29,789 bases of DNA from a virus. Below, piece after piece: positions 4,460 to 24,049 of the stretch; position 1 is the first letter of the stretch; the number at the start of each line of letters is the position of its first letter. The notes under the pieces are model-generated. The model ran no database searches and had not been told where the DNA came from. It worked only from the letters and a program-made list of their open reading frames with translations. The position numbers and the translations under genes are program-made. The stretch spans positions 1 to 29,789 of IMG/VR virus record IMGVR_UViG_3300007735_000589; one strand, 5' to 3'.

Positions 4460-5219
4460 TGACCACAAGTTCCGCTTCGTAGGTATTGTTTTCTGGTATC
4501 TTCACCGATTCAAGTTTGGTGGCGATATTGATCTGAACTGCGTTTTGTTGAGTCGTTCCATCGGAGAAGTTGATGGAGGCCGCTTCTGCCAATTGCTTGA
4601 TATTCCTCATCATGCCAAGAGCCTCCATGCCATCTAGCTCTTGTGCGGCATCTGCGGCCTTTACCAAAACCTTTCCAGTGAGGAATTTCACCGATTTCTT
4701 CATTGCTTCAAGAGAGGCTGTGATGTCTGAGATGAGGCTTGGAACTCCTTCGTCCTCCCAAGGGGCTGGAGCGCCTTCGTTAACCAGTCGATCCCGACAT
4801 ACCTTCCACCGCTGGGAATCTTTCCATACATCTATAGTTGAATGGCTAACCCTCAGTTCTTGGGCAATATCGTTGATGGATCGTCCAGAGCAATACATGG
4901 AGAAGGCTTTGATGCAATCCAGCCTCTTCTGTTTATCCATGTCCTCCATCTTTGCAGGAGCAAATTCCATGATTCGCGGGCTTTCAACCTCCCAAGGATA
5001 GGGCATTTCAGTATCGGGATTGTTTCGCCATATCTCTGCATGGGATTCCCACTTTTCGCTGTGGATCATCTTATCAAGCATTTGTTTGCTGTCTGTTTCA
5101 AGCGCATTCATCATCTCCCCTTTTTTGCGTTTGGCGACATAGAGACGAAATGCGTTTTGCTTTCTGATTCGGTTTTCGGGACTATCCCAGTCTCGCGAGT
5201 TCTTGCTTGTTCTTCCCAT
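4452..5219 (-). CDS. terS: probable terminase small subunit (HTH)
   Basis: This 255-residue protein has a helix-turn-helix around residues 104-140: a CIKAFSMYCSGRSINDIAQ segment, then LRVSHSTIDVWKDSQRWK. This is the DNA-recognition module seen in small terminases and Nu1-like proteins. The later part (about 165-225) is helical and Ala/Met-rich, fitting an oligomerisation domain, with a Thr/Gln/Glu tail. It lies immediately next to the large terminase gene but in the opposite direction, with only 28 bases between the starts. It would select the genome for packaging. The HTH is clear; the terminase assignment rests on fold pattern plus neighbourhood, and a regulator with a similar HTH is the main alternative. 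Confidence 0.65.
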   Translation of the reverse strand: MGRTSKNSRDWDSPENRIRKQNAFRLYVAKRKKGEMMNALETDSKQMLDKMIHSEKWESHAEIWRNNPDTEMPYPWEVESPRIMEFAPAKMEDMDKQKRLDCIKAFSMYCSGRSINDIAQELRVSHSTIDVWKDSQRWKVCRDRLVNEGAPAPWEDEGVPSLISDITASLEAMKKSVKFLTGKVLVKAADAAQELDGMEALGMMRNIKQLAEAASINFSDGTTQQNAVQINIATKLESVKIPENNTYEAELVVNE

Positions 5220-5247
5220 ATGGATTAGTTTAGTAGAAATTTATCAA

Positions 5248-7089
5248 ATGGCAACAGCGGAGCAGGGGATACAGAAATACGGAAGGCTATGGAGGCCCAA
5301 GGACGGGATGGCGATCAGTCCTATCCGTATTGAGATGGATGCATTTTTAATGGGATTGACCCTCGAAGAAGGAGGACTTGGCAAAGCCCGTCACTACAAG
5401 AATATCGTTTCAGCTATCTGGCCAACCTTTCAATGGCATAAATGGGCAGAACTATCGGCGCAGGCTTTTTGCAATAGTGTCCATGAGGTAGATGAGGCTT
5501 CTGGTAATAGATTTATCCGAAGTGTTACGGGGCTGGCTGGAGGAACCGACTCAGGAAAGTCCTACGGAATGGCCGCATTTGCTTTGGTCAATTGGTTCTG
5601 CGATCCAATCAACACCATGTGCATTGTGGTCTCTACGAGCAAAATAGACGCAAAGCAGCGTATCTGGGCTGCCCTTGTAAAGATGTATCGCGAAGCCCGA
5701 ACACTTGGAATCGCATCAGGCCGTCTTATCGAATCCATGGATATCATCAAGCTATCTGAAGAGGAGGGAGCTATTATCGACCCACAGACTGGGGTAAGCG
5801 ATGCCTCATCGATCATGCTTCTAGCGGCTGGCGATGAATACAAAGACGATGCCCAGAAGCGTCTTCAAGGTAAAAAGAATCGTCGTATCGTATTGATTAT
5901 AGATGAGTTACAAGATTGTTCGGCTTCTGTAATTAACGAGGCAATCTGGGGATTTAAGGGAGCGCAAGAGCTTTACGTTGTTGGGGCGGGCAACCCCGCA
6001 TCCATATTTGATCCCCATGGAAAGTTCTGTGAACCCATCAAGGGATGGATGAGCGTGGATGAGGAAACACCCAATTGGAAGATACGGGTGGCTGGTATTG
6101 AGGGTATATGCATCCGCTTTGACTCCGAAAAGGACAATCCCAATCAACAAGCCTTTGAACAGGGAAAGGGCCTTCGCTACCCATTCCTTCCGAAACCAAA
6201 TGATGTGGCATTGGCCAAAAAAGAGTTGGGAGAGCTTAACCCTCAGTATTGGAGAAAGTTTAGGGGATTCTGGCCTCCAGCAGATGCTGATGATTCCACT
6301 ATTGTGTCTGATATCCTTCTAGCTCGCCATGGGGCTTTGGATAAACCCATCTGGGATGGAACCCCGAAAGATATAGCTGGAATCGACCCTAGCTATACAG
6401 AAGGAGGAGATAGGTTTGTCTTCACCCATATGAAGTATGGAAGGCTCATCTCTGGTAAGTGGGCTATAGGAGTAGAAAAACAATACGTCCTTAATAGAAG
6501 GGCGGGATCTCAGGAGGACTTCCAGTATGAGATGATTCAGCAAATTCACGATCTATCTTTAAAACTGGGAATACCAAATCAATGGATGGGGGTAGATGCT
6601 TCGGCTGGAGGTATTTTTTGGTCTATTGGAGAGAGGGATCTTCTCAAGGGATGGCACGCTGTATCCTTTGCTGGGGCGGCTTCAGATCTTCCTGTTAGCG
6701 CCCAATACGCCATGAGAAATGAGACTACTGGAAAGCCCCAAGTTGGAAAGGAACTGTTCCACAACATGGCTAGCGAACTCTGTTTTGCTGCCCGTTATTT
6801 CTTGGAGTGCGAGCAATTGAAGGGGATAACTCCCGATCTAGCTTGGGAGATGACCCAGAGAAAGTATGTGCGCCGCACCCGAAAGATCATTGTCGAGTCA
6901 AAGACCGACATGAAAAAGAGAATAGGCAAGTCTCCTGACTTATTCGATTCCTTTGCTGTAGGACTGTTTGTCGCCCGCAAAGTATTTGGAGCCATGGCTG
7001 GATCAGAAGCTATAGCAGAAAAGAAACGGCTTAATACAGAGTCATTTAAGAAACTCAAACAGACCTTGACTTTGAGACATAATTGGTAG
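5248..7089 (+). CDS. terL: terminase large subunit
   Basis: The 613-residue protein has both packaging-motor domains. ATPase: Walker A GGTDSGKS (98-105), Walker B RRIVLIIDELQD (212-223, acidic D219/E220) and a coupling-type GAGNP (246-250). RNase H-like nuclease: acidic strands at AGIDPSYTEGGDR (377-389), MGVDASAGG (447-455) and SPDLFDSFAVG (562-572). It translocates DNA into the prohead through the portal and cuts it. ATG 5248 was chosen over an in-frame ATG at 5203 because the upstream codons overlap the divergent gene and read as non-conserved hydrophobic sequence. The start sits 28 bases from the divergent small-terminase start, so promoters must lie partly within coding DNA. Confidence 0.93.
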   Translation: MATAEQGIQKYGRLWRPKDGMAISPIRIEMDAFLMGLTLEEGGLGKARHYKNIVSAIWPTFQWHKWAELSAQAFCNSVHEVDEASGNRFIRSVTGLAGGTDSGKSYGMAAFALVNWFCDPINTMCIVVSTSKIDAKQRIWAALVKMYREARTLGIASGRLIESMDIIKLSEEEGAIIDPQTGVSDASSIMLLAAGDEYKDDAQKRLQGKKNRRIVLIIDELQDCSASVINEAIWGFKGAQELYVVGAGNPASIFDPHGKFCEPIKGWMSVDEETPNWKIRVAGIEGICIRFDSEKDNPNQQAFEQGKGLRYPFLPKPNDVALAKKELGELNPQYWRKFRGFWPPADADDSTIVSDILLARHGALDKPIWDGTPKDIAGIDPSYTEGGDRFVFTHMKYGRLISGKWAIGVEKQYVLNRRAGSQEDFQYEMIQQIHDLSLKLGIPNQWMGVDASAGGIFWSIGERDLLKGWHAVSFAGAASDLPVSAQYAMRNETTGKPQVGKELFHNMASELCFAARYFLECEQLKGITPDLAWEMTQRKYVRRTRKIIVESKTDMKKRIGKSPDLFDSFAVGLFVARKVFGAMAGSEAIAEKKRLNTESFKKLKQTLTLRHNW

Positions 7090-7107: not shown

Positions 7108-7488
7108 ATGGCCGAACTACCTATTGCACAGGCGGATATCTGCATCTTTCAAGGAGCCACCTTCAACCAGACTCTTTTCTGGGAAGTTGGCAATCCTCCT
7201 GCGCCCGTCAATCTGACTGGATATTCTGCTAAAATGCAGATTAGATCTAGCCATAAATCAAAGGCCGTTATACTTGAGCTATCCTCTCCATCTAATGGAA
7301 TTACTCTTGGAACTAGTGGGGATTACACTACTGGAGCTATTAATTTGACCATTGGCGCTACAGCTACAGCGCAATTAAGTGTTTGCGATGATGTCAAACC
7401 AGTTTATGATCTTGAGATGACAAGTGGAGGAGTGGTTACCCGCATACTCCAAGGAAACGTAATTATAGCCCCAGAGGTTACACGATGA
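7108..7488 (+). CDS. BppU-N-like baseplate/fibre adaptor, copy 1
   Basis: This 126-residue beta-rich protein contains FQGATFNQTLFW (14-25), NLTGYSAKMQIR (35-46), NGITLG, a YDLEM strand, and the ending RILQGNVIIAPEVTR. That order (QG.TF, LTGY..xMxIR, NGI.LG, Y(D/E)(L/I)E, final EVTR or EIVR) recurs in the gene at 9481, so they are paralogues. It resembles small phage tail/baseplate proteins with an N-terminal BppU-like domain, often placed just before fibre genes. A role joining a fibre to the particle is inferred from this and from the downstream fibre. Its stop overlaps the next start. Confidence 0.6.
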   Translation: MAELPIAQADICIFQGATFNQTLFWEVGNPPAPVNLTGYSAKMQIRSSHKSKAVILELSSPSNGITLGTSGDYTTGAINLTIGATATAQLSVCDDVKPVYDLEMTSGGVVTRILQGNVIIAPEVTR

Positions 7489-7790
7489 GCAGAATTTGCA
7501 TACCAGTCCCAGCTTCAACGGTTATCGGAGTTAGTTCTACTCCCGCAACATCTCCGAATTCAAATGTATTCAGAGTTGATTCTACCATAACAACACTTTC
7601 TGGATTAAAGGCATTGATTACTGCCACTGGAGTCTATCCAACTGGTATTTGTATATTTCTTCCGAATCTTGCCACTCCAGCCACATATCAATTGGTTAGT
7701 GGAACCGATGCGGAAAACTCTCCATTTATCATTTGGCCCAATGATTACAATCCATCGACAAATGCAAAAGTGTGGAAACAGAGGATGTAA
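7485..7790 (+). CDS. hypothetical protein between adaptor and fibre
   Basis: The 101-residue product starts MSRICIPVPASTVIGVSSTP. A Ser/Thr/Pro-rich N-terminus leads to a compact alpha-beta part ending in an IIWPNDYNPSTNAKVWKQRM region. Similar short proteins with a WPNDY.P..NAKVW end occur beside phage fibre genes. The start overlaps the preceding stop (ATGA), and the stop is 6 bases before the signal-peptide fibre start. No catalytic motif or membrane segment is visible. A virion or fibre-accessory role follows from position only. Confidence 0.55.
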   Translation: MSRICIPVPASTVIGVSSTPATSPNSNVFRVDSTITTLSGLKALITATGVYPTGICIFLPNLATPATYQLVSGTDAENSPFIIWPNDYNPSTNAKVWKQRM

Positions 7791-7795
7791 CATTT

Positions 7796-9484
7796 ATGAA
7801 ATTTATCGCAACAATATTATTTTTCTTTTTGTTTCTAGCTGGAGCTTTTTCTCAGACTCGCAATGTTCTTGTCAACACAAGTAGCGTTGTTATTCAACCG
7901 ACTAATTTTTGGAGCGTGGATGCTAGCAATGCTCGGAGTGGTTTGGGCCTTGGAAGTGCAGCCACAAATCCATCCACGGCATTTCAGCCATCTTCTACAA
8001 TTCTGAGCAATTTTGCATTGAGCAATACAATTTATACCGATGGAAACAACATTGCACTATACATTTCTGGCAATGGATCAGTTTTTAACATTGTTGCCTC
8101 TGACGAACTTCTGACGGCTGGGTATCCCGCAAGTGTTGGCTCAATAGGTTTTGGCGGAAATGTGTTTCAGTATAAATATGGAACAAATTCTACGGACTGG
8201 GGAAATGTAGTATATTTGAATCAATCTGGATGGGCTGGAATTAGAACAAATTTGGAACTTGGAGAATCAAATGACGTAACTTTCAGCAATGTAAATACGA
8301 TTGGATTGACAATTGTGGATGAAGTTGGCTCTCAGATTGCGTTTGAAGGAAGTTCTGCTGATATTACGCGCACAAATCTTGGTATTGGCGCTACTTGGCT
8401 TACAAACACCAGCGTCACAAATTTCCGCTCTGCAATTGGTCTTGTTTTATCCGCTTTAACAAATACCAATATAACTAATTTCCGATCCGATATTGGGTTG
8501 AGTTGGTTTGCTCTGACCAACACCAATGCTTCAAATTTCCGCACATCTGTTGAGCTTGGACTTTCTGCTTTAACAAATACCAATATAACCAACTTCCGTT
8601 CTGCTGTCGGATTGGGTTGGTATGCTCTTACGAATACCAACGCAACTAATTTCCGTTCTGATATTGGACTTGGTCTAGCGGCTCTCACAAACACCAACGT
8701 CACAAATTTCAGATCTGATATCGGCATCGGATGGTCTGCGTTAACAAATACCAATGCCGAAAATTTTAGATCAAGTATTGGCCTTGGTTGGTCAGCATTA
8801 ACCAATACCAATACCGAAAATTTTCAGTTGGCACTTTATGGAAGTGGCACTAATCCAGTTTTGGTAAACTCAAATGGAGGTGTTGTTTTTCCGACAAATT
8901 TCTGGCAACAGGCCCCAATTCAAACATATGTTCAGACATTTATTCCTGCTGCAACTACCAATAGTTATGCAACAAACGCAAGGAATCTATATGTATATTC
9001 AATGACATCAAGCATTTCTGGTGTTACAAATACCATCGTTTTGCCAACAGATGCAGCAACATTCAATGGAGATTCGGCTACCGTAACACACACTGGAACA
9101 ACAAACAGTGTTACCAGTATTTCTGGCGATGGGGGTAGCACCATTCTTGTATCTATTAGCAATAATGCAGAATCAGTAAAATTTATATATGAAGCCAATC
9201 AATGGACATTCTACCATAATATTTCTTTTACTGAACCGTTCAGATTTGCTGATGGAAATATCGAAGAGAATAAAGCAACAAGCAGAACAAATCTTGGCCT
9301 CGGCTTCCACGCATTGACAAATGTCAATACGACCAACTTTCAAGCTGCTATTTTCTCAACAAATACTGCACCAACAAATACTGGAAACATTGCATTTGGA
9401 AGTGCTGCTGCTTGGATTGAGATTAATGTCCATACCAATGGTACAACAAACAGCTTTCGTATACCGATATTCAAAGCGCCATGA
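7796..9484 (+). CDS. repeat-bearing tail-fibre protein with Sec signal peptide
   Basis: The 562-residue protein begins MKFIATILFFFLFLAGAFSQ, a classic Sec signal peptide: basic start, about 15 hydrophobic residues, A-x-S cleavage site before Gln 20. The mature part is Asn/Thr/Ser/Gly-rich. Seven consecutive 19-residue units (about 209-341) follow the pattern NFRSxIGLGWxALTNTNxT, and further LGLG units occur near residues 43-50 and 500-520. Such LGLG/TNTN repeats are typical of trimeric phage fibres. The ATG at 7796 was preferred over an in-frame GTG at 7772 because it gives a proper signal sequence. The gene is more AT-rich than terminase or capsid DNA, suggesting separate acquisition. Why a structural protein carries an export signal is unexplained. 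Confidence 0.75.
   Translation: MKFIATILFFFLFLAGAFSQTRNVLVNTSSVVIQPTNFWSVDASNARSGLGLGSAATNPSTAFQPSSTILSNFALSNTIYTDGNNIALYISGNGSVFNIVASDELLTAGYPASVGSIGFGGNVFQYKYGTNSTDWGNVVYLNQSGWAGIRTNLELGESNDVTFSNVNTIGLTIVDEVGSQIAFEGSSADITRTNLGIGATWLTNTSVTNFRSAIGLVLSALTNTNITNFRSDIGLSWFALTNTNASNFRTSVELGLSALTNTNITNFRSAVGLGWYALTNTNATNFRSDIGLGLAALTNTNVTNFRSDIGIGWSALTNTNAENFRSSIGLGWSALTNTNTENFQLALYGSGTNPVLVNSNGGVVFPTNFWQQAPIQTYVQTFIPAATTNSYATNARNLYVYSMTSSISGVTNTIVLPTDAATFNGDSATVTHTGTTNSVTSISGDGGSTILVSISNNAESVKFIYEANQWTFYHNISFTEPFRFADGNIEENKATSRTNLGLGFHALTNVNTTNFQAAIFSTNTAPTNTGNIAFGSAAAWIEINVHTNGTTNSFRIPIFKAP
8420..8818 (+). repeat. tandem 57-bp repeat, seven units
   Basis: Seven contiguous 57-base units encode 19-residue repeats with consensus NFRSxIGLGWxALTNTNxT, bounded by partial units on both sides (a TNTSVT end before, NFQ after). 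Units differ at the third, fifth, ninth, tenth and last residues and at many synonymous positions, so the array is old and not a recent slippage product. Gly and hydrophobic spacing suits a triple-stranded beta or collagen-like fibre shaft, but this is inferred. Confidence 0.9.
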
Positions 9485-9849
9485 CCAACTACTGGAGAAT
9501 TGAGCGTGATATTGATATTGTCCAAGGAAAGACTTGGACGGCAAAATTCCGTTATCTGACAAAGTCCTGCAATGGAAAAACTAATGTGCCATTTGATCTT
9601 ACGAGCTATGGGGCAACCATGGTTATCAGAGAGTGCGCTAATGATAGCACCGCACTGCTAACGCTTACTTCTGGAAACGGGATTACCTTGGGTGGGACTG
9701 CTGGCACTATTGATATAACAATCACAGCAACTCAGGCCGCAAACCTAACGGCAGGAGAAAATGTATACGAGATAGAGCTTTATCAAGGCTACACCTACAC
9801 TGGCTTCGCCACAGGCAAGGCCAATGTCTACCAAGAGATCGTAAGGTAA
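9481..9849 (+). CDS. BppU-N-like baseplate/fibre adaptor, copy 2
   Basis: The 122-residue protein shares order and spacing of motifs with the 7108 gene: IVQGKTWTAKF (13-23), DLTSYGATMVIR, GNGITLGG, TIDITITATQAANL, YEIELYQG and a final EIVR. It is a divergent paralogue and, like it, is immediately followed by a fibre. Its ATG overlaps the preceding fibre stop (ATGA) and its TAA overlaps the next ATG (TAATG), so the module is translationally coupled. A connector between fibre and virion is inferred. No enzymatic motif is present. Confidence 0.6.
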   Translation: MTNYWRIERDIDIVQGKTWTAKFRYLTKSCNGKTNVPFDLTSYGATMVIRECANDSTALLTLTSGNGITLGGTAGTIDITITATQAANLTAGENVYEIELYQGYTYTGFATGKANVYQEIVR

Positions 9850-11387
9850 TGGAAGTCATTGAGGTCATCGACACTCAAATTGAGGTTATACAGATAACCG
9901 AAAGAGAGGTGGAGGTAGTTGAGGTTATTGAGCAAGGGCCACAGGGGGAAGGCGTTCAGGTTCTAACAACTCAGGGAGATATTGTTTATCGCGGTTCTTC
10001 GGCGGTGCAACGTCTTGCTATTGGGACTGCTGGCCAGTTCCTCAAAGTAAACACAGGAGCCACGGCTCCCGAATGGGCAACAATCACCAAGTCCACAGTC
10101 GGACTAAGCAATGTAGACAATACTTCAGATGCCAGTAAGCCCGTTTCAACAGCTACCCAAACGGCCTTAGATTTAAAGGCTAATCTGGCCTCACCCACAT
10201 TTACAGGAACGGTATCTGGCATTACCAAGTCGATGGTCGGTCTTAGCAACGTTGACAACACTTCAGATGTTAACAAGCCAATTAGTAGTGCCGTACAAAC
10301 CGCCTTGGATGGCAAGGCAAGTTCTGCCGCCGCTGTTCCTTCTGGTGGAACTACAGGTCAGGTGCTGCGTAAGAAAACGAATTCCAATTATGACACGGAG
10401 TGGGGTACGGAATCGGGCGGCGTCCCAACCTCCCGCACAATTTCCGCAGGAACTGGCCTCACAGGCGGCGGAGATCTATCGGCCAACCGCACGCTGGCGG
10501 TGGCCTACGGCACAACCGCAGGCACGGCGTGCGAGGGGAATGACTCAAGACTTTCGGACAGCAGGACTCCAACATCTCACGCATCGTCGCATCAAGCGTC
10601 TGGAAGTGATCAGATCACATCGCTTGATATGACTTCGCTAACAGTCACTAATGCTTCTAATAGTCCACAGGTAAAATTTAAGGCAAAAACATTTTTTGGA
10701 AATTCCACTGGAACCGTTGGCATACTTGCAGAATCAACATCTATTTTTGGGCTTGAACCAGCATTTGGATTTACGGGAGTTGATGAAGCAGTTTCAACTT
10801 ATATAAATGTTGGATTTAGTGGAAGCGGAACCGCGCAATTAAATTTAAATACCAATGGAAATGTAGCAGTTAATCACACATTTCCAACAGAAATATTGGA
10901 TATTAATGGAAACTTGTTACTAAGAGACACAAATGCTGAATCAAAGGCTAGTTATACTGGCACTCCTGATGGAGCAAGTACCGAAGTTACAATAGAAGCT
11001 CTTGCGTTTGGTGTTGCGGGAAATGATATTGAGATTACCTTTGATGGTGAATATACAATTGATGGCGGTATTGAGAATTGGAATGGATCAAATCCAACTA
11101 ATAAAGTTTATTTGGTTAGCGGTGATGGAACACAAATACCAAATGCTGGAAGCGTATCTTTAAGCGGTGGATATAGCGCAAGCGCAAAATTTAATGTTCT
11201 TGGATCCCTTACAGGATACCGCACCTATAATCTTCCAGATAGTAGCGGCGCTGTAGCACTAACATCACAATCTGCGGATTACGAAGTTACCGATGCAACC
11301 AAAGGTGTTATCCTGAAATCTCCCGACAGCTCTCGGTGGCGCATAACTATTGACAATGACGGTAATCTTTCCTCTACAAAGCTATGA
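9849..11387 (+). CDS. modular tail fibre / receptor-binding protein
   Basis: The 512-residue protein begins with a Glu/Val/Ile-rich region (about 1-30), likely a coiled or beta attachment segment, then GPQGEG and QGDIVYRGSSAVQRL. Two copies of a shaft repeat follow (KSTVGLSNVDNTSDASKP and KSMVGLSNVDNTSDVNKP, each followed by QTALDxKA), a signature common in phage tail fibres. Next come TGQVLRKKTNSNYDTEWG, a TGLTGGGDLSANRTL element and a distal beta-rich part ending RWRITIDNDGNLSSTKL. No signal peptide is present, unlike its fibre neighbours. DNA from about 10640 to 11220 turns clearly AT-richer, marking a distal module that may have been swapped. Confidence 0.8.
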   Translation: MEVIEVIDTQIEVIQITEREVEVVEVIEQGPQGEGVQVLTTQGDIVYRGSSAVQRLAIGTAGQFLKVNTGATAPEWATITKSTVGLSNVDNTSDASKPVSTATQTALDLKANLASPTFTGTVSGITKSMVGLSNVDNTSDVNKPISSAVQTALDGKASSAAAVPSGGTTGQVLRKKTNSNYDTEWGTESGGVPTSRTISAGTGLTGGGDLSANRTLAVAYGTTAGTACEGNDSRLSDSRTPTSHASSHQASGSDQITSLDMTSLTVTNASNSPQVKFKAKTFFGNSTGTVGILAESTSIFGLEPAFGFTGVDEAVSTYINVGFSGSGTAQLNLNTNGNVAVNHTFPTEILDINGNLLLRDTNAESKASYTGTPDGASTEVTIEALAFGVAGNDIEITFDGEYTIDGGIENWNGSNPTNKVYLVSGDGTQIPNAGSVSLSGGYSASAKFNVLGSLTGYRTYNLPDSSGAVALTSQSADYEVTDATKGVILKSPDSSRWRITIDNDGNLSSTKL

Positions 11388-12190
11388 TTAAGCATCTCAT
11401 TGCCATTTTGCTCACAACCTCGGCTGCATACTCGCAGACGATCAAGACTCTTGGTTACAACACGACCAATGGGAAGGTTGCGTATTCTGGATCGAATACT
11501 CTCACATTTACTAATCCGCTGGGTTTTAGTGACGCCGCCACAACTCGCACTAACCTCGGTCTTGGCTGGCTCGCTCTTACCAACACCAATGCTTCAAACT
11601 TCAGAACTGCCATTGGTCTTGGTTCCCTTGCAACAAACAATACCGTTCCAAGCGGTGCGGCAGCGTCGAACTCTATTCTTACGGCAGATGGTGCTGGTAG
11701 CAGTTCGTTTGTAGCGAGCAAGACGGTTACTGTTGTTAAGTCGTCGGATCAATCACGAACCAATACTTCGGATATGACTATTACCAATAACAATGACCCA
11801 GAACTTACTCAAACAGTAACAGCGGGAGATATTTATTATATTGGAGTTAGGCTTGAAATTACCACTGGTACTAACTCTGGCTTCAATGCTGGTATTTTTA
11901 CTGGAACAAATAACGTGTTTAGCTCAACAAGTCAGACCGTTGGAACTGCTATGCGCCACAATTTAAACGTGACTGGTTTTTATGTATCTACTGGAAACCC
12001 AGTAGCTCAGATAACTTTCGGTGGTAATGGTATAACAGGTGCAGCAACAAGAAGTGCTTGGACTGGAAATGGTATATTTCGTTGTGCTACCAATGGAACT
12101 CTAACCGTCCGATGGTCGCAATTTGTTGCCTCAAACAGCGCAACCACTCTCCATGCTGGATCATCATTCACTCTAACTAAACTAAACTAA
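11384..12190 (+). CDS. signal-peptide protein with fibre repeat
   Basis: The 268-residue product starts MIKHLIAILLTTSAAYSQ, a Sec signal peptide with A-Y-S/Q cleavage. It then carries one and a half copies of the same repeat as the 7796 fibre (TRTNLGLGWLALTNTNAS followed by NFRTAIGLG). The remaining 180 residues are a Thr/Asn/Gly-rich beta domain with no cysteine pairs or enzyme motif, resembling a C-terminal head domain of a fibre. Start ATG overlaps the preceding stop. It is probably a receptor-binding or surface-displayed fibre paralogue of the 7796 protein with a short shaft; export is inferred from the signal. Confidence 0.65.
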   Translation: MIKHLIAILLTTSAAYSQTIKTLGYNTTNGKVAYSGSNTLTFTNPLGFSDAATTRTNLGLGWLALTNTNASNFRTAIGLGSLATNNTVPSGAAASNSILTADGAGSSSFVASKTVTVVKSSDQSRTNTSDMTITNNNDPELTQTVTAGDIYYIGVRLEITTGTNSGFNAGIFTGTNNVFSSTSQTVGTAMRHNLNVTGFYVSTGNPVAQITFGGNGITGAATRSAWTGNGIFRCATNGTLTVRWSQFVASNSATTLHAGSSFTLTKLN

Positions 12191-12192
12191 TT

Positions 12193-12594
12193 ATGAAAAA
12201 ACTAATTATCATCACTATCTTTGCATTAGCTCAGACACTCCACGCTCAACTCGTCCCTCAAACGCAGCTTGAGCAAGACCTCTTCGCCATCAACCGCGCA
12301 GCGCAGGGAACTACCTATTATGGACAACTGCTTGTCCAGAGTCTGAATGCCGCCCATGCCGCTGTGTGGAATCTTCCCGATGATCGCCTCACAGCCGTTC
12401 TCAATCACCTTGGCCCCCAAACTGTTGCTAGCCTCGTTCAACTTCAAGCTGCTACCGCAACCGCACTCAACCAGTCCCTTGATGCTGCTGGAGATACTGG
12501 ATCTCGCGCTATTGCCGATCCATCCCGCGAGTTTTCATGGGATGGGAGCAATGTTGTATTGGTTCCCACTATAGAGGATCAGGTTCAGAATTGA
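12193..12594 (+). CDS. secreted helical protein, unknown
   Basis: The 133-residue protein starts MKKLIIITIFALAQTLHAQ, a Sec signal peptide (Lys-Lys, hydrophobic core, L-x-A before Gln). The mature part is Ala/Leu/Gln-rich and mainly helical (about 25-110), with an acidic/aromatic tail (FSWDGSNVVLVPTIEDQVQN). No lipobox, cysteine or catalytic motif is visible. It follows the signal-bearing fibre by 2 bases and precedes the portal leader. It could be a periplasmic chaperone, a fibre-associated protein or a superinfection-exclusion protein; none of these is shown by the sequence. Confidence 0.65.
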   Translation: MKKLIIITIFALAQTLHAQLVPQTQLEQDLFAINRAAQGTTYYGQLLVQSLNAAHAAVWNLPDDRLTAVLNHLGPQTVASLVQLQAATATALNQSLDAAGDTGSRAIADPSREFSWDGSNVVLVPTIEDQVQN

Positions 12595-12630: not shown

Positions 12631-14913
12631 ATGGCTTCTAACGGCAACGCAGAACTGGAAAATCTACCAGAAGCAGGCGCTCCACCTAAAAAGCGGATCA
12701 AATCGTCTGACTCTCTTGTTTCGATTGCTGATAAGTATATCGAACAGGACGAGAATGCTTCCTATCTTCGGGCTAGAGCACAAGCTCTTGTCAATGGAGA
12801 AGCTCCTTATGATTCCGAAGAGTTGAAATCCAAGGGGCTGACTCATGTGGTTAATGCCAACTTCGGTGAGGCTAGTGCTATTCTAGAGGCGGCATTGGCT
12901 CCTTATATTGAACTTCAAAATGGAGTTCCTCGTATTGCCAATGTTATCATGGAGTCTTACGAGGGCGAGTCAAACGAGGATTCCGAAATCATCTCTGAAG
13001 AGTTTGATTGGATGATCAAAGAGTGGAGTGATTACTCCTATAACATGCAGCTTCTTTCCCGCGAGTTTGTTGGTGATGGAGTTGGGGTGGCCATGTGGCC
13101 AGATGAACGAAGTGTTTTCTGGGAGCCATGTGGACTCAAAGACTTTAAGGTAGCCCGTGACACAAAAGTATCAGATGAGGCTATTGAGGTGGCCATTGTT
13201 CAACGCTCCATGAGCGTAAGCGAGCTATACAACTATATCCGAAATCCCGAAGCAGCCAAAAAGCTTGGCTGGAATATCAATGCGGTTAAGCAGGCGATTT
13301 GGAAAGCTTCTACCAAGTCAGATCGCTGGAAGAACTACAATGCCCATTGGGAGGACTTTGAGCGCGAGATTAAGGAGAACGACCTTTATCAAGGTGAGTC
13401 GGCCTACCATCGCGCTGAACTTATCTATGGATACAATCGCGAATTTGATGGCAAGTTTACACAGCTTATCGGAAGTCGCGATTCTTCAGATTTTCTTTAT
13501 GAGCGATACAGCCGCTATGGCAACGTCAATCAATGCTTTGTCATATTTACCTATGGAGTTGGACAGGGAACATTCCACACCATTCGCGGTCTAAAACAAA
13601 AGATCTACAATCAGATTCAGATTAGCAACCGAGTTCTATGCCAAGCAGCGCAAGCTGCAATTACCTCTGGATTGATCCAGCTTCAGGGGGATGCCGAAGC
13701 CATTCAAGACTTTCAATATATTGAGGTGGGGCCTTATACATTCATCCCTAGTGGATTAACTCCCATCCAACTTCAACCTCCAGCAGTGGCCACGCAGGGA
13801 CTTCCAGTCTACAATCTGATGAGTCAAGTGCTACAAAACAACACTGGAAGCTATCGTTCTCGCCAAGCAACTCCAGATGGCCAAGCTCGTTCCGCTACAG
13901 AGGTTGTTCAGCAGGCCCGTCAGGAATCAACGCTCAACGCCGCAGCATTGGAACTTTTCTATACTCCGTACAATAAGTTGCTGACAGAGCAATATCGCAG
14001 GGCGGTTAATCCCCTTCTTACAGCAAACGACAAGGGTGGAAAACTCGCCCTAGAATTTCGCCGCCGTTGTGCTCGTAGAGGCATCAGCATTGAGCGTATG
14101 CGTAGCTTCTTAAAGGTTACCGCCTTTAGGGCCATGGGAGACGGAAGTCCCGTTATGACCGAAATGGCCTCCAAGCAACTCATGGAGCTTTATTCCCTGA
14201 TGGATGAGAAGGGCAAGGAAAATACACTCCGCTCAGTTATCGCTGGCATTTCTGGAGTTGGTTGGCAGAAGGTGAATCTGTTTGTTTCTGAGAAAGGCCC
14301 GCGCCGAACAATTGACTTTGATATCGCCAATCTTGAAAATGGAAACCTCCGTCAAGGTATTCCCCAGATGGTGCATGATAGCCAAAATCATGCAGTACAT
14401 ATTGAGGCTCATATTCCGATGATTGCCGAAATCATTGAAGCCCATCGCCAGCAACAGATTCCCGATGAGCAGGCAATGGCAATCCTTCGTCCAGCTTCAG
14501 ATCATGTTACGGAACACTTGGTCATGTTCTCGACCAACAGCTTCCGCAAGCAGGAGGTAAATGAACTCAAGCGCCAATTGCAGAATCTCACTGCTTATAT
14601 TGATGAGCTTGAGCAACAGGTGATTAATCGCGCCATGGCCGAACAGAGCAAGATGCAGGAACAGGCTATGCAGCAAGTTCCTCAAGGAGGACAGATGGAT
14701 CCCAAGATGGAAATGGAACTTCAAAAGGCGCAACTCAAGTTGGCTGAGATGCAGGAAAAGCGCATGATGAATCAGGAAACCCACGCCCAGAAGATGGAAA
14801 CCATCCGCCAGCAGATGGCCCTTAACGACCTCAAAACCCGCAGTTCCATCCTACAAAAGGCATCTAGGCCAGCACAGGCTGGTGGTCGCCCACCATTAAT
14901 TGCGACAGCATAA
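12631..14913 (+). CDS. portal protein
   Basis: The 760-residue protein has the size and composition of podovirus-type portals. A polar Lys/Glu-rich N-terminus leads to a central alpha-beta region with EFVGDGVGVAMWPDE and VFWEPCGLKDFKVARDT, typical of portal wing and clip. Helical regions follow, and a long Gln/Met-rich helical C-terminus runs from about 625 (e.g. ELKRQLQNLTAYIDELEQQ), suited to a barrel-like or disordered tail. It forms the dodecameric ring at one vertex through which DNA enters and to which tail proteins attach. Position before the scaffold and capsid genes supports this. Not all motifs are diagnostic by eye, so the assignment rests on size, composition and order. Confidence 0.8.
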   Translation: MASNGNAELENLPEAGAPPKKRIKSSDSLVSIADKYIEQDENASYLRARAQALVNGEAPYDSEELKSKGLTHVVNANFGEASAILEAALAPYIELQNGVPRIANVIMESYEGESNEDSEIISEEFDWMIKEWSDYSYNMQLLSREFVGDGVGVAMWPDERSVFWEPCGLKDFKVARDTKVSDEAIEVAIVQRSMSVSELYNYIRNPEAAKKLGWNINAVKQAIWKASTKSDRWKNYNAHWEDFEREIKENDLYQGESAYHRAELIYGYNREFDGKFTQLIGSRDSSDFLYERYSRYGNVNQCFVIFTYGVGQGTFHTIRGLKQKIYNQIQISNRVLCQAAQAAITSGLIQLQGDAEAIQDFQYIEVGPYTFIPSGLTPIQLQPPAVATQGLPVYNLMSQVLQNNTGSYRSRQATPDGQARSATEVVQQARQESTLNAAALELFYTPYNKLLTEQYRRAVNPLLTANDKGGKLALEFRRRCARRGISIERMRSFLKVTAFRAMGDGSPVMTEMASKQLMELYSLMDEKGKENTLRSVIAGISGVGWQKVNLFVSEKGPRRTIDFDIANLENGNLRQGIPQMVHDSQNHAVHIEAHIPMIAEIIEAHRQQQIPDEQAMAILRPASDHVTEHLVMFSTNSFRKQEVNELKRQLQNLTAYIDELEQQVINRAMAEQSKMQEQAMQQVPQGGQMDPKMEMELQKAQLKLAEMQEKRMMNQETHAQKMETIRQQMALNDLKTRSSILQKASRPAQAGGRPPLIATA

Positions 14914-14961: not shown

Positions 14962-15261
14962 ATGGATTGGACGCCACAGGATTCCCGTGAATGGGCTAAA
15001 GTTTGGTCAATGCCCCATATGCAGAAGGGGCTTAAATTTATCGCAAGGCGTGTCCGTCCAAGGAAGTCCGCTGGCCCTGTGGCCCAAGGGTTCGATCTGT
15101 CGCCCGTGTTCATCAAGAGTGCTGGTTTTTATGAGGGCGCTCAAGAGGTTATGGATCTCATTGAAATTTTGGCAACTGGAGAAGTGGAAAACAAAATGAA
15201 ATTCGACTTGCCAGAGCCGTTCTCCCATATAACTTCGGAAGACAAACAAACAAACAAATAA
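14962..15261 (+). CDS. small protein between portal and scaffold
   Basis: This 99-residue protein begins MDWTPQDSREWAKVWSMPHM. A basic segment (FIARRVRPRKSAG) is followed by an acidic helix (AGFYEGAQEVMDLIEIL) and an FDLPEPF loop. The gene ends in a CAAA tetranucleotide run (coding DKQTNK), which could vary in length. Short proteins in this position are common in podovirus-like head operons and may have minor structural roles. I do not recognise a family. The ATG is preceded by a 48-base AT-rich spacer after the portal stop, without an obvious Shine-Dalgarno. Confidence 0.6.
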   Translation: MDWTPQDSREWAKVWSMPHMQKGLKFIARRVRPRKSAGPVAQGFDLSPVFIKSAGFYEGAQEVMDLIEILATGEVENKMKFDLPEPFSHITSEDKQTNK

Positions 15262-15273
15262 CATTAATATACT

Positions 15274-16590
15274 ATGGCTGACATTCTTAACTCTGCTTTG
15301 ACTGGTGATGCTGATTTTGCTAGTTCTGTTTTTGGCAAAGGCCCAGAACCCACCGAAGCTCCGACCAATGAAACGAAGGAAGTTGCCCAAGAGGAATCTG
15401 CTCCCCTTAAAGAGGAGGCCCAACCCGAAGCGGAGGTCAAAAAGCCCGAACCCAAAGTTGAACCAAAGCCCGAAAAGAAGGCTAAAGCTACAAAAGAAGA
15501 GGCAGCGAAGGTAGTCGAGAAACTTACCGAGACATCCAGCACAAAGGAAGAAAGCAAGAAAGTTGAGTCTTCTGAAGATGATCTTCCTATCAACCCTCAC
15601 TTCCAAGATAAGCTAGTTGCCGACAAACCCGAAGGCGATGATTCTGATAAGGGTGTATCAAGCTGGAAAGAGATCAAGTCTGAAATGAAAAAGGCCCGTG
15701 AGGAGCGGGATCGCTTGAAGGCCGAACTTGAAGCTACCAAGGAAAAGGTTGGAAAATATGAGGGAGAGACCGTCAAATCCCTTCAGGAGGAGCTTGAGTC
15801 ATACAAGACCCGCATGGCTGAACTCAACCGCGAGCTAAAGACCGCCAACTTTGAAAGAAGCCCAGAGTATGTCGAACAGATTAAAAAGCCTCTGGCGGGC
15901 CTTCAAGGCGATTTGAAGGCCATTGCCGAAGCCAATGATGCGGATTTCTCTAAACTTTGGCAGGCCCTGACCGAACCCGATGTCCGCAAGCGCACCGACT
16001 CCCTTGAGGATCTGACTATGGATTTCAAGCGCATGGAGCAGTTGGCTATTGTCAAAATGGCTGATCGTTACCATGAGTTGGCCCAATATCACCACAGGTT
16101 CCAAAACGAGGCCGAATCCTTGGCAGAAGCCGAAGCGGCCCGCAAGGCCCAAGCCGAACAGGAGTTCATCGATAATGATCTTCGCCTCCAGAAGGCATTT
16201 ACGGCCAAGACTTGGACAAACCTTGAGGATCGCTATTCCTTCCTCCAAGAGGTGGATGGGCAGGATGAGTGGAACAGCCATATCCGTAGTGCCAAAAAGG
16301 CCGCATCCGAAACAAACCTTGATCGTCTGTCGGTGGAAGATCGTAGCGCCATCCTTGCAAGGGCTGCTGTTGTACCATTCCTAGAGAGCGCCATCTCCCA
16401 TTATAGCGCCCAACTGGAGAAGATTTCTGCTCAAAAAGATTCCAAGATCAAAGAACTTCAAGAACAATTGGAGGGACTTGTCGGGGCTACGCCAAGCTTG
16501 GGCAAAGCCACTGATACCGATTCATCCAGTGATGATGACGAAGATCCCGATAGCTTGATGAACTTTGGTAGGAGTATTTTGGGACGTTAA
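15274..16590 (+). CDS. capsid scaffolding protein
   Basis: The 438-residue protein is very rich in Glu, Lys and Ala, with a Pro/Glu/Lys-rich stretch (about residues 25-85). Long coiled-coil helices follow (about 130-200, e.g. KKAREERDRLKAELEATKEK), and further helices run to about 410, where an acidic Asp/Ser tail begins before a C-terminal MNFGRSILGR. The absence of cysteine and the high charge fit a scaffold that organises capsid subunits and then leaves the prohead. It lies directly between portal and major capsid, as in many phages. Alternative: an internal core protein that stays in the virion. Confidence 0.75.
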   Translation: MADILNSALTGDADFASSVFGKGPEPTEAPTNETKEVAQEESAPLKEEAQPEAEVKKPEPKVEPKPEKKAKATKEEAAKVVEKLTETSSTKEESKKVESSEDDLPINPHFQDKLVADKPEGDDSDKGVSSWKEIKSEMKKAREERDRLKAELEATKEKVGKYEGETVKSLQEELESYKTRMAELNRELKTANFERSPEYVEQIKKPLAGLQGDLKAIAEANDADFSKLWQALTEPDVRKRTDSLEDLTMDFKRMEQLAIVKMADRYHELAQYHHRFQNEAESLAEAEAARKAQAEQEFIDNDLRLQKAFTAKTWTNLEDRYSFLQEVDGQDEWNSHIRSAKKAASETNLDRLSVEDRSAILARAAVVPFLESAISHYSAQLEKISAQKDSKIKELQEQLEGLVGATPSLGKATDTDSSSDDDEDPDSLMNFGRSILGR

Positions 16591-16802
16591 TAAATTACCT
16601 ATTGACATTAAATAGGAATTAATGTAGCCTTTATCTCAAGACTTGAGTCTGAGTTGGTCGCAGACACCTTGCTGGCGGGTTAGCGCCTTCTCAAAATTTG
16701 TAGCCGTTAATCTCTGGTCGCGGCCCAGAAACCTTAAACCCGAATATTGGGAGCAATCCTGCTATTCAAAAACTAACCTTAAACTAGAAAGAAACTAATA
16801 TC
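16591..16802 (+). promoter_or_regulatory. structured leader before the major capsid gene
   Basis: This 212-base gap is the longest between the scaffold and lysis genes. It holds an inverted repeat CTCAAG-A-CTTGAG (16635-16647), hairpins GTCTG/CAGAC (16647-16665), GGCG/CGCC (16674-16687) and TCTGG/CCAGA (16713-16729), and a direct AACCTTAAAC repeat at 16730 and 16775. No open frame of note is present. It is probably a promoter and 5' leader that raises or times capsid expression; a riboswitch or sRNA cannot be excluded but nothing specific matches. Confidence 0.5.
16602..16630 (+). promoter_or_regulatory. possible promoter for the capsid gene
   Basis: TTGACA (16602-16607) matches the sigma70 -35 consensus exactly. 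A 17-base spacer leads to TAGCCT (16625-16630), a weak -10. It would start transcription about 165 bases before the capsid ATG, giving the structured leader. The poor -10 and lack of host data keep confidence low. Confidence 0.3.
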
Positions 16803-18059
16803 ATGTCAGCACCTGTTGCTACAAGCTGCGAAGCGATCAACGACAATTTCCAAAGGGAAACTAATCGTATCGCTCTCGGCACTTACCGTTTGGGTCTCTA
16901 TAAAGATCCTTATCTCCGTTTCGTTACCCAGTCGGCCTTCCCCGACAATATGGGTAGCGTCATCAAAAACACCATCTCCCAGCGCACTCTTGCCACTGGA
17001 AGCGGATGGACTGATGTTGGCGTCAGCAATGGCTCGTCCACCGATGCCTGCTTGGCCCCTGTCAAAACTGTTGGCTATGCCTTCGATCAGAAGCAGTTCA
17101 ATCTTCGCCATCAAGCGATTGAGTCGAACTGGATCTGCTTGGAAGACGTTCGCACCTCGGCGTTCCCGATTGACGATGTCAACAACTACATCAAGATCCT
17201 TGCCGATAACGTCAACGTCGAATGGACGAAGCGTTACGACAACGACTATCTCCTAGGAGCTAGCGACGCTGGCACTTTGCTCAGTGTAGAACCTGGCCTC
17301 GACGACAGCGGCACTGCCACTGTTACCAGCGATCTCGCTACCATCACGGGAACGGCTGCTCCCACGAGCGTCCTGACTCTTGGTGTGCTGCGTGAGATCT
17401 ATGATCGTCTGTATCAGGACAACGCTGGCGATGACGGTGATGCGGTCTCCGATGACGGCTCGCCTGTCTTCAACGTGTTCTCCGAACGCGCTACGATTGA
17501 GAACCTGATCAAACTCAACGCTGATGTCCGTCAGGATATCCGCTGGAGTGATCGCGTTAACGATCTGCTTGGTGCAAACGGCTCCTCGCTCCTGCCCCGC
17601 AAGAGCTATGGTGGCTATGTGTTCCACAGCCGCCCGTTCCCGAAACGCTTCAACGACAACGGCTCTGGTGGCTTTGTCGAAGTTGCCCCTTATGTCGCCA
17701 CCACTGGTGCGACCAAGGGAACGAAATATACCATCAACCCCGCCTACAAGGCCGCGAAGTACACCTCCACGGTTATCTTCCACCCGAAGGCGATGGAGTG
17801 GCTCGTCCCGAACCCCAACATCAAAGTTGGTAAGCTGACTTATGATGCTCAGAACTATCGCGGAGACTTCCGCTGGGTCAACGAGTATGATAAGCATTGC
17901 AACCCTGATCGCAACAGCGGTTACTGGCGTGCGAAGATGGCATGCGCGGTGAAACAGGTGTTCCCCCAGTGGGCCTACTACCTGATCCACTTGCGCTGCA
18001 ACTTGGCCAATGACCTCGTTGCTTGCGCCAGCGGTTCTGGCTACGGGTATCTCAGTTAA
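16803..18059 (+). CDS. major capsid protein
   Basis: The 418-residue protein begins MSAPVATSCEAINDNFQRET. It has a mix of beta strands and Gly/Asp/Asn-rich loops (e.g. DDSGTATVTSDLATITGTAA, NDNGSGGFVEVAPYVA) and a C-terminal YWRAKMACAVKQVFPQWAYYL region. Codons look biased to C-ending forms compared with the neighbours, as expected for a very highly expressed gene. It lies after the scaffold with a dedicated leader and a hairpin after it. The assignment to an HK97-like fold is inferred by context and size; no single motif proves it. Confidence 0.75.
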   Translation: MSAPVATSCEAINDNFQRETNRIALGTYRLGLYKDPYLRFVTQSAFPDNMGSVIKNTISQRTLATGSGWTDVGVSNGSSTDACLAPVKTVGYAFDQKQFNLRHQAIESNWICLEDVRTSAFPIDDVNNYIKILADNVNVEWTKRYDNDYLLGASDAGTLLSVEPGLDDSGTATVTSDLATITGTAAPTSVLTLGVLREIYDRLYQDNAGDDGDAVSDDGSPVFNVFSERATIENLIKLNADVRQDIRWSDRVNDLLGANGSSLLPRKSYGGYVFHSRPFPKRFNDNGSGGFVEVAPYVATTGATKGTKYTINPAYKAAKYTSTVIFHPKAMEWLVPNPNIKVGKLTYDAQNYRGDFRWVNEYDKHCNPDRNSGYWRAKMACAVKQVFPQWAYYLIHLRCNLANDLVACASGSGYGYLS

Positions 18060-18081
18060 CAGTTAGATTCCCTTCATCAAG

Positions 18082-18111
18082 GCTTGCCTCGGAGTAAAAT
18101 CTGAGGCAAGC
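18082..18111 (+). terminator. hairpin after the capsid gene
   Basis: GCTTGCCTC (18082-18090) pairs perfectly with GAGGCAAGC (18103-18111). Two more inner pairs (one G-U) give an 11-base stem and an 8-base loop. There is no T run after it, so it is more likely a processing or stabilising hairpin at the end of the capsid message, or a weak attenuator, than a full terminator. Confidence 0.55.
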
Positions 18112-18134
18112 TCTATGAGAGGAAATAACTTATT

Positions 18135-18392
18135 ATGAAAATCGAAAAACCCGAAAACTACGAATTGCCCGCCGATGTCAAAGACGGCGAAACCTTTGAA
18201 GAACTCGTCACCTTCAAGGTCGAGGGCGAATACCTCGTCCCGACCATGATTGCTGGTGTTGAGATCGCTTCTGAAGATGACAGCGAGAAGTCCATGGCCG
18301 AGAACGCCACCCCCGAAGAAGAGGCTGCTGCCTCCGAAATGGAGAAGGCTCCGATGAGGGGAATGGGTCGCCGCATCATGGGCATGGCTTAG
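18135..18392 (+). CDS. small acidic protein after capsid
   Basis: The 85-residue protein starts MKIEKPENYELPADVKDGE. It is strongly acidic to about residue 75 (EDDSEKSMAENATPEEEAAA), then ends in a basic Met/Gly/Arg tail (PMRGMGRRIMGMA). A Glu-rich helix and a basic end might bind the capsid or DNA, e.g. as head decoration or a portal plug, but nothing identifies it. It lies between the capsid hairpin and the next virion-like gene and uses a weak Shine-Dalgarno (gagaggaa, about 9 bases upstream). Confidence 0.55.
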   Translation: MKIEKPENYELPADVKDGETFEELVTFKVEGEYLVPTMIAGVEIASEDDSEKSMAENATPEEEAAASEMEKAPMRGMGRRIMGMA

Positions 18393-18414
18393 TTGGGTTA
18401 GGGTTCCATAGGCT

Positions 18415-18810
18415 ATGGCCCTTCCCACACTAGACGCTACCTTCGCTTCGCTAGCAGATCTGCCCCGCAAGCAGATGTTGGCCAAGTGGATTATTACACA
18501 ACTTGCCGATGGAACAATTGCGGACTATTGCACCCTTCCAGAGCATTACCTTTGGGCCAAAATAGCAGCGGCTCATAGTGCTGGGCTTTCAGAGCAAGAT
18601 TATATTTCACTTCCAAAAAAATATATATGGAGTGACATTTACAATATATTTTCTGGATCAAGTGGCCAGCATATTGACTGGAGTGAAAATGTGGCCTTGG
18701 GTCATATTGCTGCCGCACTTCGTGGAGACACAGGAAATCCAGCCAACCTAGCGACCTATATCGATTGGCCTTGGAGGTATAAGGTAACTTCTATTATTCT
18801 GGCAGTATGA
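18415..18810 (+). CDS. hypothetical virion-like protein
   Basis: This 131-residue protein begins MALPTLDATFASLADLPRKQ. It is helical, with an aromatic/Leu middle (TLPEHYLWAKIAAAHSAGLS, SLPKKYIWSDIYNIFSG) and a C-terminal AALRGDTGNPANLATYIDWP followed by WRYKVTSIILAV. The (x)LP(E/K)xYxW motif appears twice (about 41-47 and 66-71), suggesting an internal duplication. Such a protein beside the capsid gene may be a neck or head-completion protein. No recognised family. Its stop overlaps the next start (ATGA). Confidence 0.6.
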   Translation: MALPTLDATFASLADLPRKQMLAKWIITQLADGTIADYCTLPEHYLWAKIAAAHSAGLSEQDYISLPKKYIWSDIYNIFSGSSGQHIDWSENVALGHIAAALRGDTGNPANLATYIDWPWRYKVTSIILAV

Positions 18811-19079
18811 GCATCCAACCAGTCCGTAATGAAAGAGGGGTCAGGCTCACCATGAGTGAGTTGATTGCGGGCGTGGCTCTTATTATTACAGCATTTTCGG
18901 CCCTCAATGGATGGATAGTCCTTCCAGAACAGATGAGGGCGGTGCAGGGCAATGACGCCAAACAAGATGCGAAGATTGAGCTTATCCAAAGGGATGCCCA
19001 GACTCGCAGCGAGACGCTGGCTCGCATTGACGAACGCACACAAAGAATCGAAGAATACTTGCAATCCAAGGGATTCTGA
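18807..19079 (+). CDS. small membrane protein with coiled coil (holin/spanin-like)
   Basis: The 90-residue protein has one membrane segment (about 16-40, SELIAGVALIITAFSALNGW) and a charged, Gln/Arg-rich coiled coil (about 41-86, ending RIEEYLQSKGF). One-helix proteins with a periplasmic coiled coil resemble inner-membrane spanins or small holin-associated proteins. It opens a run of three small membrane proteins before the endolysin, so a lysis role is likely. Which member is the holin cannot be told from sequence alone. Start overlaps the previous stop (ATGA). Confidence 0.65.
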   Translation: MSIQPVRNERGVRLTMSELIAGVALIITAFSALNGWIVLPEQMRAVQGNDAKQDAKIELIQRDAQTRSETLARIDERTQRIEEYLQSKGF

Positions 19080-19094
19080 CCTAGCTTACTAGCC

Positions 19095-19376
19095 ATGAAA
19101 TCATTCTTAGCAAAACTCGCTGGCATCCCTTCCATCATCTGGAACTTCTATACTCCCATTCTCAAACAACTCATTGCCGATGGGGTGGCATCACTGCTTC
19201 CGCTGGCTCTTGATATTGTTCGCGATCTGGCTGATACTGACAAAACTGGAAGTCAAAAGCGCGAGGCCGCAGTCAAAGCTCTGACTAAAGCCGCTGTCCG
19301 CAATGGCATCGATGCTTCCGAATCTCTGATCCGCTTCACTATTGAATCGGCAGTCCAGAAACTAAAAGACGAATGA
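19095..19376 (+). CDS. holin-like protein (LLH-holin resemblance)
   Basis: This 93-residue protein starts MKSFLAKLAGIPSIIWNFYT. A hydrophobic part (about 9-45) is followed by GSQKREAAVKALTKAA, then NGIDASESLIRFTIESAVQKLK. The (K)R..A...L......G(I/V).....I...IE.AV..LK pattern is that of the Phage_holin_6/LLH holin family. The stop overlaps the next ATG. It is one of three candidate holins in the cassette; the family match is by eye. Confidence 0.55.
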   Translation: MKSFLAKLAGIPSIIWNFYTPILKQLIADGVASLLPLALDIVRDLADTDKTGSQKREAAVKALTKAAVRNGIDASESLIRFTIESAVQKLKDE

Positions 19377-19720
19377 AAAATAAGATCCTAGCATTTCTGG
19401 TCAGCAAGGCTGGCGGAATCATCACTCCCATTGTCGCCACTTTGGTGGCTTCGGTTGTGGCCAAACTGGCAATGTTTGATCCCAAGCTGGCCGAGACAGT
19501 CGATCAAGTTTCACTCACTGGGTTCATCGTCGCCCTCATTCTTTCGGCAGTCAACTACTTCACCAATGAGGCCAATGCCTCTGGCATCAAGAAGATCCAA
19601 GCTTTGGTCAATACTGACGAAGATGGTGTGGCTGGCCCCGTTACCTACACTGAGGTTCGCCGCGCCATTGAAATCCCGAAAGCCAAGAAACCCGCTTGTA
19701 GCCGCAAGAAGAAACGGTGA
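19373..19720 (+). CDS. membrane protein with peptidoglycan-binding-like tail
   Basis: The 115-residue protein has two hydrophobic segments (about 16-34, ITPIVATLVASVVAKLAMF, and 47-63, LTGFIVALILSAVNYFT), fitting a holin hairpin. The next segment, ASGIKKIQALVNTDEDGVAGP followed by VTYTEVRRAI, matches the core of a PG_binding_1 domain (I..IQ..V....DG..GP.T). A basic tail (KKPACSRKKKR) ends it. The combination suggests a holin or anchor that also touches peptidoglycan. The stop overlaps the next gene's GTG. Confidence 0.6.
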   Translation: MKNKILAFLVSKAGGIITPIVATLVASVVAKLAMFDPKLAETVDQVSLTGFIVALILSAVNYFTNEANASGIKKIQALVNTDEDGVAGPVTYTEVRRAIEIPKAKKPACSRKKKR

Positions 19721-19896: not shown

Positions 19897-19934
19897 GAAC
19901 TGGGATATTGGACGCCGCCGTTGCGGCTGGTAAG

Positions 19935-20516: not shown

Positions 20517-20519
20517 TTT

Positions 20520-20684: not shown

Positions 20685-20687
20685 GCC

Positions 20688-20942: not shown

Positions 20943-20954
20943 TTTACACACACA

Positions 20955-21563: not shown

Positions 21564-21568
21564 ATTTT

Positions 21569-22318: not shown

Positions 22319-22319
22319 T

Positions 22320-22784: not shown

Positions 22785-22785
22785 T

Positions 22786-24047: not shown

Positions 24048-24049
24048 AA

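Follow-up and report, generated by a model that had tools for sequence, protein, structure and literature searches.

Why would a tailed phage place secretion signals on its tail fibres? Tail fibres are normally assembled in the cytoplasm, and no report of Sec-exported tail fibres was found in the open-access literature. The question is raised by a 29.8-kb virus record, referred to here over its whole length as the window, which contains genes for TerL (terminase large subunit), a portal-sized protein and an MCP-type protein. Three genes in the operon between TerL and the portal-sized gene start with what appear to be Sec signal peptides, and two of the three code for fibre-like proteins.

The fibre operon and its relatives

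From TerL to the portal-sized gene, all of the features described here lie on the + strand. TerL (5203-7089, phrog_2) is followed by an LtfC-like small beta-sandwich protein without a signal (7108-7488, phrog_1084/phrog_3304) and by a conserved 101-aa protein without a convincing signal (7485-7790). Fibre A (7796-9484, 562 aa) comes next and consists of a signal peptide and a fibre with TNTN/LGLG repeats. A second LtfC-like protein (9481-9849, phrog_1084/3304), also without a signal, is located upstream of fibre B (9849-11387), which matches tail-fibre PHROGs and ends in a KSPDSSRWRITIDNDGNL module. Fibre C (11384-12190, 268 aa) overlaps fibre B by an ATGA and has a signal peptide, the repeat and a C1q/TNF-like tip. 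Protein D (12193-12594, 133 aa) is made of a signal peptide and a 115-aa helical hairpin. The portal-sized protein (12631-14913, 760 aa) is named for its size and position, and the MCP-type gene (16803-18059) is assigned by size and order; neither has a family match. Three paralogous genes of the window, at 1248-1601, 29107-29526 and 29523-29789, all start MSDTPETD...ARKLERER.

The phage group is widespread, uncultured and tailed. At least 181 close relatives of TerL were found in IMG/VR. No relatives of TerL, MCP, the window fibre A or D were found in the annotated phage collection (50,697 phages for TerL). In searches of annotated phages fibre C gave only weak repeat matches, with E no better than 0.7, in fibres of E. 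coli phages, the N-terminal query gave chance matches only, and the matches of the junction of the fused B-C genes described below were all short and fell mostly in the B module. Defence-system models had no match. Many of the loci are fragments and some are overlapping copies of one contig (L002/L108, L009/L104/L267), so the locus counts are larger than the number of independent genomes.

In the long relatives (records of 67-73 kb) the order and sizes of the portal, scaffold-like and MCP genes resemble those of N4. These records also code for a roughly 3000-aa protein (G004 (L091-L092) 15032-24265, G001 17438-27082, G003 44933-53890). Membership of the N4-like phages is suggested by the gene order but is unsupported by hhalign, which against N4-like Schitoviridae gave nothing but a weak match for the giant protein (probability 19%, E 0.0013), with portal, MCP and TerL all showing no similarity. 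A Cys/His-rich stretch (SVHCHSRAHCRACRSDPAWR-SVGAPDECPHGIRGLGD) is near identical in two otherwise distant phages, at G001 12750-13043 (also in L002) and at G003 34299-34562 on the - strand.

Signal peptides on fibre A, fibre C and protein D

With a slash at the predicted cleavage site, the three N-termini read MKFIATILFFFLFLAGAFS/QTRNV for fibre A (signal peptide at 7796-7852), MIKHLIAILLTTSAAYS/QTIKT for fibre C (11384-11434) and MKKLIIITIFALAQTLHA/QLVPQ for protein D (12193-12246). The preliminary description of this DNA had picked out the open reading frames at 7796, 11384 and 12193 for such signals, and they are present with N-termini of the Sec/signal-peptidase-I type. Signals were called with a purpose-written rule-based scorer that uses a simple rule set. 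It flagged A, C and D and did not flag 9849 (fibre B), 9481, TerL, the portal or the MCP. The LGLG/TNTN repeat that had been described as common to two of the genes was recovered as well, in 7796 and 11384; by tblastn the N-terminal part of 11384 matches window positions 9221-9328 with 53% identity (E 8e-5).

The signals go well beyond what chance would give. The signal on fibre A is kept beside the terminase and portal genes in 26 of 26 TerL-to-portal regions, each time at the fibre A position, even though the fibre A body ranges from about 530 to 1650 aa. A profile of the fibre A N-terminus identified 156 related places, and the best 80 of the 156 all aligned from residue 1 or 2. Homologues of fibre A that start downstream of the signal region, which the preliminary description had named as contrary evidence, were looked for and none were found. 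Across viral contigs all 73 distinct fibre A N-termini have a signal, 72 of them by the scorer; the lone formal miss, L249, has a plainly visible MKTILSLIISAALAISGYS/Q.

Among 72 distinct sequences, fibre A homologues have the features expected of a Sec/signal peptidase I substrate, with a positive n-region, an uncharged hydrophobic h-region and small residues at -3 and -1. Lys2 does not vary, charges are absent from the core, position -3 is G/A/S/V, position -1 is G/A/S only and +1 is Gln in all 72. When the search pattern did not ask for Gln, it was still found at +1 in 51 of 52 cases, the remaining one being off register only. In the same 72 sequences dN/dS rises from 0.49 for the n-region to 0.68 for the core, then falls to 0.23 for the c-region and to 0.05 over the first 26 residues of the mature protein. 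The most conserved part of fibre A is its mature N-terminal motif QTRNVLVNTSSVVIQPTNFW (7853-7912, dN/dS 0.05). As judged from these sequences, the fibre A N-terminus evolves as a true signal peptide would. Cys makes up 0.012% of fibre A and 0.37% of fibre B; a low Cys content is expected of an exported protein, and the TN-rich repeats may contribute to it. The signals, their conservation and selection and the cleavage motif are well supported at the sequence level, and Sec export of fibre A, fibre C and protein D is very probable.

In the window clade 728 N-termini were examined, and 63 of the 74 that were flagged have Gln right after the cleavage site. In a related control clade of 80 loci (TerL 46-100% identical to G001 TerL, MCP/fibre region covered in part only), 5 of 584 N-termini were flagged and 0 of 584 had Gln. 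The five appear to stem from a wrong choice of start or from ORFs in the wrong frame. Known Bacteroidota phages (seven loci from six phages) carry signals on spanin-/lipoprotein-like or small secreted proteins and none on fibres. A short ORF starting VALAATAAMALSAYIVFD in L029/L055/L087 was considered as a frameshifted signal and was dropped, as it lies in another frame at the end of the Gly repeat.

Glutamine at +1 and the likely host

The predicted mature forms of A, C and D all have Gln at +1, in agreement with the Bacteroidetes Q-rule. About 71% of the signal-peptidase-I sites in Bacteroidetes expose Gln, while such sites typically make up <20% in Chlamydiae and Spirochaetes and a few cyanobacteria are high (PMC5837995). 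About ten further signal-bearing protein types of the phages studied here also have Gln, and small unrelated proteins of the QDGSF, QRYES and QNAVM types carry a signal with Gln. The QDGSF type is a conserved non-fibre Q-rule protein of about 95-130 aa, with the site ...A/QDGSF, whose gene lies upstream of TerL in many relatives (L058:152-550, L069:232-627, L079:2908-3303, L040:4278-4556 and others). In G003 (L099) two adjoining small ORFs with secretion signals are located at 11209-11693, one for a Q-rule protein (MKKLLALLLLTTTCLG/QRYES) and one for a lipoprotein-like protein (MKRLVPLLVIVVCGGCG).

Ribosome-binding sites are found at 5-21% of genes here and at 0-19% of genes in the Bacteroidota phages tested, the comparison being with Bacteroidota phages only, and such sparse sites are compatible with a Bacteroidota host. 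A host search in 84,980 genomes with a TerL sequence and a TerL alignment gave no relative, so the Q-rule argument is one made from the phage genes themselves. Because Gln is found on A, C, D and the small proteins and because ribosome-binding sites are sparse, we infer that the host is likely a member of the Bacteroidota.

Fibre identity of A and C

The window fibre A gives only weak, unnamed matches. Fibre A of L087, however, matches the tail-fibre PHROGs phrog_11393 (4e-26, the best), phrog_5481 and phrog_1591, and has shaft repeats in common with a cyanophage fibre that lacks a signal, that of Cr-LKS3. The Cr-LKS3 fibre is also preceded by a small gene, whose likeness to the LtfC-like genes was seen by eye. 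The fibres of PHROGs 11393, 5481, 1591 and 35419 and of the Cylindrospermopsis phage Cr-LKS3 resemble the proteins described here in their shaft repeats, C1q/TNF-like tips and LtfC-like small neighbour. The Cr-LKS3 fibre, the only one checked, has no export signal, whereas in A and C a signal and a QTRNV...PTNFW motif replace the Cr-LKS3-type N-terminus.

For fibre C, a sequence profile found nothing significant among PDB sequences. Its tip (aa 108-268, 11705-12187) is modelled as a C1q/TNF-like sandwich with moderate confidence (tip pLDDT roughly 45-80), and fold matches were obtained with phage fibre tips and with a TNF-like lectin. The tip is also homologous to the C-terminus of a fused B-C protein in L008 (52% identity, E 4e-41). 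The assignment of both A and C as fibres is well supported by these sequence and fold matches.

Exported and cytoplasmic fibres within a genome have no common tip. B-C fusions aside, the sole overlap between the two kinds is a shaft segment in L009, where the exported fibre A (L009:2494-4947) and the fused B-C protein (L009:5309-8290) have a Gly-rich segment in common (44% over 133 aa), which suggests a recent exchange within one genome. No Pfam/NCBIfam match to an autotransporter membrane-anchor domain or to a T9SS C-terminal sorting domain was found in window A, C and D or their relatives. A lipobox Cys is absent from the cleavage site, where +1 is Gln in all fibre A homologues. Glycosylation was considered as a reason for export and is unsupported because the periplasmic O-glycosylation motif D[ST][AILMVT] is depleted in fibre A (69 seen vs 133 expected).

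Fused B-C genes and protein D

It had been stated that the fibre at 9849 has no signal and that exported and cytoplasmic fibres would coexist. Fibre B of the window indeed lacks an N-terminal signal, but close homologues hold an internal one, and the two kinds of fibre, although they coexist in one operon, are not always separate genes, as in several relatives one gene codes for both and has the signal within it. In the window, and likewise in the distant phage G001/L002, whose TerL and MCP are about 32% identical to those of the window, fibre B ends in ...KSPNNSRWRITIDNDGNLSSTKL and a stop, and C starts in the ATGA overlap. Fused genes are found in L004, L008, L009, L030/L034/L036, L103, L105, L106 and L107 and, in the G001 clade, in L131/L144, which amounts to about eight distinct records. 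In these the B module, which in the window occupies 11316-11387, is followed in frame by an intact signal-like segment that includes A-x-A/Q and then by a mature fibre of the C type, as in ...RWRLTIDDSGSL-IRTIITLIFLMSFICGSQA/QVRDLVYGTNNVV. This internal signal is unexpected and was absent from the preliminary description.

The B module and the position of the junction do not differ between the fused and split forms, and the n-region of the internal segment lacks a start codon. The dN/dS of this segment is 0.35 compared with 0.14 and 0.17 in the flanks, while the Arg, the hydrophobicity and the final AQ are kept. Either signal peptidase would split a polyprotein at this segment or the segment would form a joint inside one fibre; the Cys content is the same before and after it, so the sequence cannot choose between the two.

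If the fused protein is split by host signal peptidase, B would remain cytoplasmic or anchored by its C-terminal helix and C would be released to the periplasm; the two-gene form of the window would lead to the same two products via translational coupling at the ATGA. The common module and junction position fit this, as does a hydrophobic segment that keeps its Arg, core and AQ while diverging. With Cys equal on both sides and a small number of distinct fused records, such processing is a real possibility but falls short of probable. It concerns the fused relatives and is compatible with the reading preferred below.

Protein D comes after C in every locus with a KSPN-type B-C junction where the contig continues, and B-C-D therefore behaves as a cassette common to distant phages. 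It is placed before the portal in one phage and after the MCP in the other, the capsid proteins of the two being about 32% identical. A high-confidence model (pLDDT 89) shows the mature part of D as a helical hairpin, and this part has no Foldseek match at E <= 0.001 in the PDB. The VIA-align rows for D (Z 5.2 or less) are within chance level for helical hairpins and were set aside. D of L110 is about 80% identical apart from the signal, which has a different core (MKKLLLLVAALALALTAHA/Q) that BLAST left unaligned, and the signal is intact; this is a second case, beside fibre A, of an N-terminus that evolves as a signal peptide would. The simplest guess is that D is a co-exported partner or chaperone of C.

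Possible roles of exported fibres

We tentatively favour a reading in which A, C and D leave the cytoplasm through Sec and mature in the periplasm, and in which the fibres among them dock on the virion at lysis. Proteins A, C and D would be made with N-terminal Sec signals and moved across the inner membrane by host Sec. Signal peptidase I would cut before the Gln, and host glutaminyl cyclase would cap the Gln as pyroglutamate in accordance with the Q-rule. The mature proteins may then fold in the periplasm, with D assisting C in the manner proposed above, while fibre B and the LtfC-like adaptors would stay behind in the cytoplasm, alongside the particle under assembly. We infer that the periplasmic fibres would meet the virions released at lysis and dock via their conserved mature N-terminus.

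Late docking is preferred because the mature N-terminus is conserved, because tips are exchanged among fibres with and without an export signal and because B and C are fused in relatives. The mature N-terminus of fibre A has 74% identity while the mid-shaft and C-terminal parts have about 41-45%, and a conserved N-terminus (74%) with a variable shaft (45%) fits a part whose docking partner is itself conserved. The mature motif also recurs inside fibre A, however, and may therefore be an element of fibres in general rather than a dock. The benefit of exporting virion fibres is hard to see, which counts against late docking. A combined form holds that fibre segments leave through Sec, mature in the periplasm with the help of a co-exported protein and are attached to particles only at lysis, and that in some members the proximal and distal fibre form one polyprotein which host signal peptidase splits at the internal signal; taken as a whole, it is rather unlikely.

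It has also to be considered that exported A, C and D are not part of the virion. As soluble or envelope-bound receptor blockers they could occupy the phage's own receptor, either late in the infection or, once the cell has lysed, on its debris, which would exclude other phages and spare the progeny. The conserved export signals are consistent with this, and exported exclusion proteins such as T5 Llp are a precedent. T5 Llp and phi80 Cor are small lipoproteins and P22 SieA is a membrane protein, all involved in superinfection exclusion. In each case, as here, a phage protein is sent to the envelope, but the proteins described here are fibre proteins of 250-1650 aa with no lipobox. The genes lie in the terminase-portal operon among LtfC-like adaptors, C is fused to the virion-type fibre B in several phages and no lipobox, T9SS or autotransporter anchor was found. 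A simple decoy is further weakened by the lack of a common tip between exported and cytoplasmic fibres within a genome. A blocking role is on balance unlikely, although phages of Porphyromonas gingivalis do encode Q-rule secreted proteins of unknown function (PMC10367356; PMC10653852). In the P. gingivalis phages of the Nixviridae (PMC10367356), as here, a signal-peptidase-I site exposes an N-terminal Gln; the carriers here, in contrast to those genes of unknown function, are tail-fibre-like proteins and a partner in the terminase-portal operon.

Could the hydrophobic helices, N-terminal and internal, simply stay in the fibre as joints or membrane-active elements, with Sec left unused? The segment within fused B-C has no start codon at its n-region, as would be expected of a joint, and the part after it is not Cys-depleted. 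A joint would have no need of a conserved A-x-A/Q, an invariant Lys2 and a freely varying core, and signals of this kind, likewise with Gln, are found on unrelated proteins (the helical D and small proteins of the QDGSF and QRYES types), which makes this explanation quite improbable. The idea in the preliminary description that the genes were captured from a host adhesin, without a virion role, would explain signal peptides as such but is very improbable, as shafts and tips alike fall into families of phage tail fibres, the gene neighbours are phage-type, no autotransporter/T9SS domain was found, and there was no match in plasmids, the bacterial sequences searched with these proteins.

Significance for tailed phages

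Virion proteins with Sec signals are familiar from filamentous phages, whose coat proteins pIII and pVIII have such signals and are assembled at the membrane. Here the signals are found instead in a tailed phage with TerL and portal. According to the Hankyphage paper, phage DGR proteins have no signal peptides.

A conserved Sec signal on fibres implies either an extra-cytoplasmic step in the assembly of tailed phages or exported exclusion factors derived from fibres, and either would be a new role for fibre proteins. The internal signal peptide of the fused B-C proteins is an unusual gene arrangement in which the question of export can be addressed within one protein. For phages without cultured relatives, Gln at +1 may serve as a hint of a Bacteroidota host that is obtained from sequence only. 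The lineage in which the fibre signals occur is common and uncultured.
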